Below, one piece after another: positions 35,745 through 37,343 of a stretch of DNA of 64,000 nt (within the stretch, counting starts at the first letter, position 1; each line of letters starts with the position of its first letter). The notes beneath the pieces were generated by a model. It was given only the letters and a program-made list of their open reading frames with translations. It was not told the origin of the DNA and ran no database searches. The stretch comes from Hyphomonas sp. (GTDB lineage: Bacteria; Pseudomonadota; Alphaproteobacteria; Caulobacterales; Hyphomonadaceae): positions 248,847 to 312,846 of the forward strand of contig NZ_JAGYJH010000006.1 of NCBI RefSeq assembly GCF_018402285.1, in the 5' to 3' direction. The position numbers and the translations under genes are program-made.

Positions 35745-35847
35745 ACTCTCCCTGCGGCGCCGGAATCGGGCGCATCCCCATTTCCTACATCACACCGGAG
35801 GCGATACCCGTCAACGCGGGCGATTCACGCGGGGCGGAGAGAAAATT

Positions 35848-36226
35848 AGACCAGATGGCCAATAAGCCGGGTTCTGTTCGTCCCTTGCGGGATCTGGCAG
35901 CCATTCCTCTGGGGCGTTCATTGCTGAACGCCTCGGCGCGACGCACCCGGGGCACGGGCGGCGGACAGCCCATATGTGCCCCCTACTTGGTCTTGCTCCG
36001 GGCGGGGTTTGCCATGCCAGCCCTGTTACCAGCGCTGCGGTGGGCTCTTACCCCACCCTTTCACCCTTACCCTCGGGCTGAAGCCTTCGGGCGGTTTCCT
36101 TTCTGTGGCACTTTCCCTCGGCTCACGCCGGGCGGCCGTTAGCCGTCGCCCTGTCCACCTGGAGCCCGGACTTTCCTCCAGCATGGGGTTACCCCCATAC
36201 CAGCGGCTGCCCGGCCATCTGGTCTG
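35848..36226 (-). ncRNA. rnpB: RNase P RNA (bacterial class A)
   Basis: Minus strand has GGAGGAAAGTCCGGGCTCC near the 5' end and GACGAACAGAACCCGGCTTA near the 3' end, with terminal complementarity CAGACCAGATGGCC/GGCCATCTGGTCT. Confidence 0.95.
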
Positions 36227-36423
36227 GTGGGGGATATAGGGGAAGTGCAGGCGCAGCGCAAATCAAGGGCAAGTGAGGAGGGCGGTTGCAGGTGGGGCTG
36301 TCCCTTCCGTCCGCTTCGCCTCCATCTCCCGCGCTTGGCAGGGGAGGATGATCCCCTCGCCTGCTCGGGCGCAGCGGACAGACCGAAGGGGATGCTGCGC
36401 CACGATTCAGGCCCCAAACGCAA

Positions 36424-36960
36424 GAAGGCACGAACCCCTTTCGGACTTCGTGCCTTCCCGTGTGTTTCGAATCGGTCTACCGAGACACTGTGCTAGCACT
36501 CGATTTCGGTCTTCGATCGACATCAAGGCTCTGGAGACAATCCGTTCGAGCGGATTCCCTTTCATCACCTTCCAGACCCGGACGTTCGCCTTTTCAGGCG
36601 CACGGTTCCGTTTCCGTCGCCGCCGTGCACAACCGGGGGGTTGCCTGCACGCGGCTGACCGCCTGCGGTTACCATTGCTGGCACTCACTTCTTGGTCACC
36701 GTTTACGGATCGTGCCCCGTTACGGCATACGGCCCCGATCGGTGGGTCTAGTTCCCGCCTCACGGCCATCGCCTGCTTTATCCCTTCATCTCCGCCGGGG
36801 TCCTTTGCGTGGCCGGTCTCCCGGCTTTGCTCCTGACCCGGTTTCGTCCGGGGGCGATGGACTTGGCCTTCGGTTCCTCTGGCAGGTTTGCTCCTGCGGG
36901 GAGTTCCGTTGGCTTACCGAAACGATCTCACAAGGCCTCGCCTGAGTCGAGACCCTGTCC
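36424..36960 (-). ncRNA. Candidate large structured non-coding RNA, family unassigned
   Basis: No credible CDS; on the minus strand GNRA-capped hairpins GCCGG-GAGA-CCGGC (36812-36825), CGCCT-GAAA-AGGCG (36587-36600), GAAGGCACGAAGTCC-GAAA-GGGGTTCGTGCCTTC (36424-36457), plus other nested helices. Confidence 0.5.
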
Positions 36961-37343
36961 AGATTTTTTCTCGTCAGGCGAGAAGAATCTCACAGGTTTC
37001 GTTGCGGCTGTGGAATGATTTTGAGCCTCCAGAGAAAAACTTAACAAAATCAACCGGACAAGGATCAATCCTTTCCAGGCTTGCAGGCGCTCGGAGGTCC
37101 TGCGCAGGGGGTGTTCGTCCAACTCGTCCGCAGACGGTGTATTATTTGCGACGAGATCTAAGTGATATGTCCCTGGCTTCCCGGCTCTGCTCATCCGCAG
37201 AATGGCCGGGTGTCGGGATGCAGTTCCCTGCGGACAGGCACGCCTCATTTCCTGTCGCTCCTGTAATGAGTGCGGGCATTGGGCGCACCTACAACAGCTC
37301 CGCGAATGCAAGGTTTTTTTCTTGGGCGGAGCATGCCACAACC

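Follow-up and report, generated by a model that had tools for sequence, protein, structure and literature searches.

Next to the RNase P RNA gene (rnpB) of this Hyphomonas genome lies a gene for a structured noncoding RNA of roughly 490 bases, which folds into a conserved, pseudoknotted shape and matches no catalogued RNA family. The element is encoded on the minus strand of the window, the 64,000-nucleotide stretch of DNA analysed here, and is distinct from rnpB. Homologues, one per genome, occur in several genera of a single bacterial family, with a probable promoter and an intrinsic terminator of their own. The function of the RNA is unproven, as is its expression, for which no data were at hand. 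We hold with high confidence that it is an independent, new structured RNA.

Identification of the RNA and its boundaries

The original prediction described a large structured RNA of about 550 nt and unassigned family on the minus strand, directly upstream of rnpB, with three GNRA-capped hairpins and a possible transcript end at the hairpin 36424-36457. The observation itself is confirmed, as all the hairpins it named (36424-36457, 36530-36576, 36587-36600, 36625-36650, 36812-36825, and 36882-36897) are present in the sequence. Its reading as a large structured RNA is also supported, although with corrections. The length is about 490 nt rather than 550, the proximity to rnpB is a local accident, two of the three GNRA caps are not conserved, and the key pseudoknot had gone unnoticed. 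What looked like the 5′ end of the RNA (36922-36950) is probably promoter DNA.

A strong match to an Rfam family had been named in advance as the result that would make the RNA a known one. A scan against all 4227 Rfam models at E up to 10 returned only rnpB plus sub-threshold noise. Absence of homologues or of covariation, which would have reduced the element to chance structure or decayed DNA, was likewise not observed. The interval between rnpB and the yihY-type gene contains no stable reading frame, and no frame is consistently open across the homologues.

The minus strand folds better than dinucleotide shuffles (z -4.6), but so does the plus strand (z -5.1), and energy alone does not decide the strand. 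The evidence for the minus strand comes instead from the excess of G-U over A-C cells in the core helices (141 to 38), from the conserved GNRA loop of hairpin P3, and from the orientation of promoter and terminator, which both face the minus strand. Of the three GNRA caps, only that of P3 is conserved family-wide. The cap at 36587-36600 is GNRA only in the nearest relatives, whereas that at 36424-36457 is the loop of a terminator hairpin whose sequence changes freely.

Table 1. Features of the RNA locus in window coordinates
Feature	Position	Strand	Supporting observations
Predicted transcript of the new RNA (about 490-495 nt)	36420-36915	-	Conserved block in 30 Hyphomonas loci; bounded by promoter and terminator; transcription start placed by spacing from the -10, not measured
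Upstream inverted repeat CACAG-N12-CTGTG, probable regulator site (DnaA-box-like half sites)	36991-37012	.	Found in most homologues at 19-20, 30-31 or 40-41 bp before TCGACT; only 3 such repeats in the whole genome
-35 element TCGACT; TCGACTC (36944-36950) contains a CcrM-type GANTC site (GACTC)	36945-36950	-	TCGACTC found in 43 of 44 homologues
-10 element GATCGT (consensus nATnnT), 17 bp from the -35	36922-36927	-	T3 in 43/43, A2 in 36/43, T6 in 40/43
5′ hairpin GCAGG-AGCAAA-CCTGC	36882-36897	-	Pairs kept through one-side and some two-side changes in Hyphomonas, absent in part of Henriciella; not individually significant
P1, 5′ strand (pairs with 36766-36773)	36853-36860	-	8 bp, at least 95% paired; outermost pair E=0.003
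P1, 3′ strand	36766-36773	-	As for the 5′ strand
P3 hairpin GCCGG-GAGA-CCGGC	36812-36825	-	GNRA loop in 44/44; loop-closing pair E=0.003
P4 (36761-36765/36735-36739) enclosing P5 hairpin 36743-36757 with loop CUAG	36735-36765	-	P4 pairs E=0.000, 0.003 and 0.047; palindromic loop variants UCGA, CCGG
Pseudoknot, GCC (36731-36733) with GGC (36714-36716) in the P7 loop	36714-36733	-	Variable pair C-G 27, U-A 16, U-G 1; third-best of all column pairs; two-set E=0.003
P6 hairpin with inner CGG/CCG stem P7 (36717-36719/36706-36708)	36698-36726	-	4 of 6 P6 pairs E<0.05; P7 invariant in 44 sequences
Conserved 3′ block; hairpins GUG-CUAG-CAC (36490-36499) and UCGG-UAGA-CCGA (36472-36483)	36452-36502	-	83-95% identical to distant Hyphomonas homologues; loop CUAG or CAUG, both palindromic
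Intrinsic terminator hairpin with a short T tract	36424-36457	-	Sequence replaced between clades with pairing and T run kept
rnpB (RNase P class A), neighbour only, not part of this RNA	35847-36222	-	RF00010, 304 bits; absent next to the RNA in the other Hyphomonas loci L007-L030

Distribution of homologues

BLAST finds the element in 32 of 61 related genomes. A pattern scan of named genomes locates it in Hyphomonas, for example in H. polymorpha PS728, and in a second genus, Henriciella; exact hits of the degenerate pattern in other phyla were taken as chance and not followed. A covariance model of the 5′ core built from Hyphomonas alone (R1) reached three further genera of the same family at E values of 1e-9 to 1e-27. 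A second model (R3), trained on all of these, finds one match in each of 56 of 105 family genomes: 36 of 42 Hyphomonas, 17 Henriciella-type, and 3 in two other genera. Six Hyphomonas genomes and many other family members lack a match, so the RNA is dispensable. Four Hyphomonas genomes that are at least 99% complete (G002, G003, G025, and G029) give no match to either core model; these are apparent losses that would serve as natural controls.

We accept no homologue outside the family. In 385 genomes of the class the only matches outside it are two weak ones, one of which reads as protein-coding DNA while the other lacks most of the P6 pairs. Of the individual outside matches, that in genome G297 (locus L077) lies in DNA that reads as dnaE, that in G193 (L078) looks coding too, and that in G367 (L116) lies in DNA that reads as enolase; all three were rejected as chance. 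The match in G706 (24 bits, L117), which lacks most of the P6 pairs, was also rejected. No match was found in the plasmid and phage collections, and a scan of viral contigs for the 3′ motif found none. A literature search found nothing on this RNA.

Covariation supports a pseudoknotted core

To assess the structure, we aligned 44 sequences with MAFFT without using structural information, built a FastTree tree, and simulated a null in which each column keeps its number of substitutions but places them at random on the tree (an R-scape-like script of our own). Of 46 pairs in the core, 10 have E<0.05, distributed across P1, P3, P4, P6, and a pseudoknot, and the six best of all column pairs lie in the structure. 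Covariation above phylogenetic expectation, the criterion for a structured noncoding RNA, is thus observed. The pseudoknot joins GCY to RGC in the P7 loop. Its covarying pair was noticed in the ranking before the pseudoknot was added to the structure, so that its two-set value is slightly favoured, but its rank among all pairs is not.

The 3′ half varies in length, with predicted transcripts of about 330 to 590 nt. It aligns poorly outside Hyphomonas and shows only one significant pair, apart from which the near-invariant block at 36452-36502 stands out in Hyphomonas. In loci L066 and L067 (genus g20) the RNA is much shorter (about 330 nt predicted for L066), although the core is intact.

Several other pairings were considered and dropped. 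The 5′ pairing CUCA/UGAG, first taken as a helix, is not significant and coincides with promoter spacing. A pairing of GUUUCG with CGAAAC at the 3′ end was discarded because the group with GUUACG does not compensate. The tRNA-like look of GATTCGAAACACCA was not supported by any T-arm pairing.

The P5 loop is CUAG in most sequences and UCGA or CCGG in others, while the 3′ hairpin loop is CUAG or CAUG. Intramolecular kissing of the two CUAG loops is disfavoured, as the other loop does not follow where one changes (CAUG, UCGA), while each stays self-complementary. Most variants are self-complementary, with one clear exception (CCAG in locus L013) and a few that are shifted. Simulation gives P values of 0.03 and 0.10 for the changed loops, so that a kissing homodimer is a suggestion and not a result; contacts between RNA molecules were not assayed.

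Probable promoter and terminator

The first conserved block, TCGACTC, is followed after exactly 17 bp by nATnnT, with a spacer of variable sequence. This is the layout of a sigma-70-type promoter, so the RNA probably begins near 36915. L067 lacks the TCGACTC block. Upstream lies the inverted repeat CACAG-N11-13-CTGTG, whose distance to TCGACT is 40-41 bp in most homologues, 30-31 bp in some clades, and 19-20 bp in others, corresponding to whole turns of DNA. This favours a protein bound on a fixed DNA face and is hard to explain for a non-transcribed stretch.

The half sites resemble the TCCACA DnaA motif and the -35 element contains GANTC, both described for Caulobacter cell-cycle promoters (PMC4287350, PMC3667746). 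Control by DnaA or by GcrA/CcrM rests on this motif resemblance only, without binding or methylation data. In genus g19 a frame that reads like GcrA, the cell-cycle regulator, lies about 1.7 kb from the RNA (L075, 5282-5803), beside an ABC-2 permease like that near the Hyphomonas copies.

INDEPENDENCE

In the window's clade (L001-L006, L076) the RNA lies between rnpB and yihY. In the other Hyphomonas loci fetched (L007-L030) rnpB is not near, and neighbours there include uvrB, a Na/H antiporter, an ABC-2 permease, and a caspase-domain protein. The RNA gene has changed location while its copy number stays one. In the non-rnpB Hyphomonas locus L033 a caspase-domain protein (PF00656; 10929-13199) lies close to the RNA, and similar long frames recur at the same place in sister loci. 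In other genera the RNA sits beside tRNA genes or PilZ- or XRE-like frames, the last two named from our reading of the sequence. It is therefore neither a leader of rnpB nor a piece of RNase P, is not tied to any one gene, and does not act in cis on one gene. With a promoter and a terminator of its own and no fixed neighbour, the element satisfies the description of an independent RNA gene on sequence evidence only; transcription was not measured.

Comparison with known RNAs

RNase P class A (RF00010) is similar in size and a neighbour in this clade, but within the window its model matches only at rnpB and not at 36424-36970. For alpha tmRNA (RF01849), neither ARAGORN nor the covariance model finds a two-piece tRNA-like domain with tag frame in the window; the genome's copy is at G000:C3:858706-859059 (G000 being this genome). 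The model of 6S RNA (RF00013), a rod of about 187 nt with an open-promoter-like bubble, has no match in the window, and a candidate elsewhere in the genome scores 35.4 bits, below the cut-off. OLE, ROOL, GOLLD, HEARO, and group I and II introns, as held in Rfam 15, have no match at E up to 10, and none at gathering score in 15 loci with divergent homologues.

OLE, ROOL, and GOLLD are large bacterial noncoding RNAs with multi-helix folds and loop–loop contacts that form RNA-only homo-oligomers (PMC12286853), which self-complementary loops would also permit here. The new RNA is shorter, has no sequence or covariance-model match to them, and was not seen in the phage records or in the viral-contig scan for its 3′ motif. 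The only near-miss is Proteo-phage-1 RNA (RF03044), with a partial match of 21.8 bits at the P6 hairpin and following AGAACACCGGCA of a Henriciella homologue. This is far below the 42-bit cut-off, is not matched in the window, and is likely due to chance.

Discussion

We interpret the element as an independent gene for a previously undescribed, trans-acting structured noncoding RNA of the Hyphomonas family. The sequences themselves show single-copy homologues, a covarying P1-P7 core with a pseudoknot and an invariant GNRA hairpin, a conserved promoter-like element, an upstream inverted repeat moved in whole helical turns, and an intrinsic terminator. What follows from these is inference: RNA polymerase with a sequence-specific activator would transcribe the gene, the DnaA-box-like half sites and the GANTC site inside the -35 point to DnaA and GcrA/CcrM cell-cycle control, the core would bind one or more proteins as a scaffold or regulatory RNP, and the two self-complementary hairpin loops may join two copies. 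This cell-cycle and RNP mechanism is tentative. Its fullest form, a cell-cycle-timed, homodimeric large RNA specific to Hyphomonas and relatives, is unlikely though not excluded. In that view, DnaA at the upstream repeat and GcrA/CcrM at the -35 would switch on, around replication, a pseudoknotted RNA that pairs with itself through palindromic loops and organises a protein complex.

Among the alternatives, all of them unlikely, a new ribozyme with the P6/P7 loop and pseudoknot as catalytic core ranks first. The nearly invariant loop RGCRCGA, the invariant P7, and the pseudoknot are compatible with this, but no known catalytic signature is present and the invariant residues equally fit a protein or ligand site. 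A very divergent member of a known RNA class is less likely still. The size and the GNRA-capped, pseudoknotted architecture are generic to such RNAs and the weak Proteo-phage-1 match exists, but the model scans give no support, and rnpB, tmRNA, and the 6S candidate are separate genes in this genome. A cis-acting leader or antisense element, for example a long 5′ leader of rnpB, is suggested by the position just upstream of rnpB on the same strand. However, a terminator lies between the two and the neighbour is different in other lineages. At 36223-36300 rnpB seems to have its own promoter, separate from the new RNA, with TTGATT and TATATC-like elements read by eye. A small protein gene with a structured mRNA is very unlikely: a 120-codon frame overlaps the element in this genome, but open frames differ in position and length between homologues and indels are not multiples of three.

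That bacteria carry orphan large RNAs is already known; what is new here is the RNA class, which is unrelated to any catalogued family at model level. New classes of structured bacterial RNA approaching 500 nt are rare, and several known ones proved to be ribozymes or large RNP scaffolds. This RNA is present in the named strain H. polymorpha PS728, is single-copy, and is missing in some near-complete sister genomes, making it directly accessible to deletion and phenotype tests, while the helical phasing of the upstream site gives a testable handle on when it is made.
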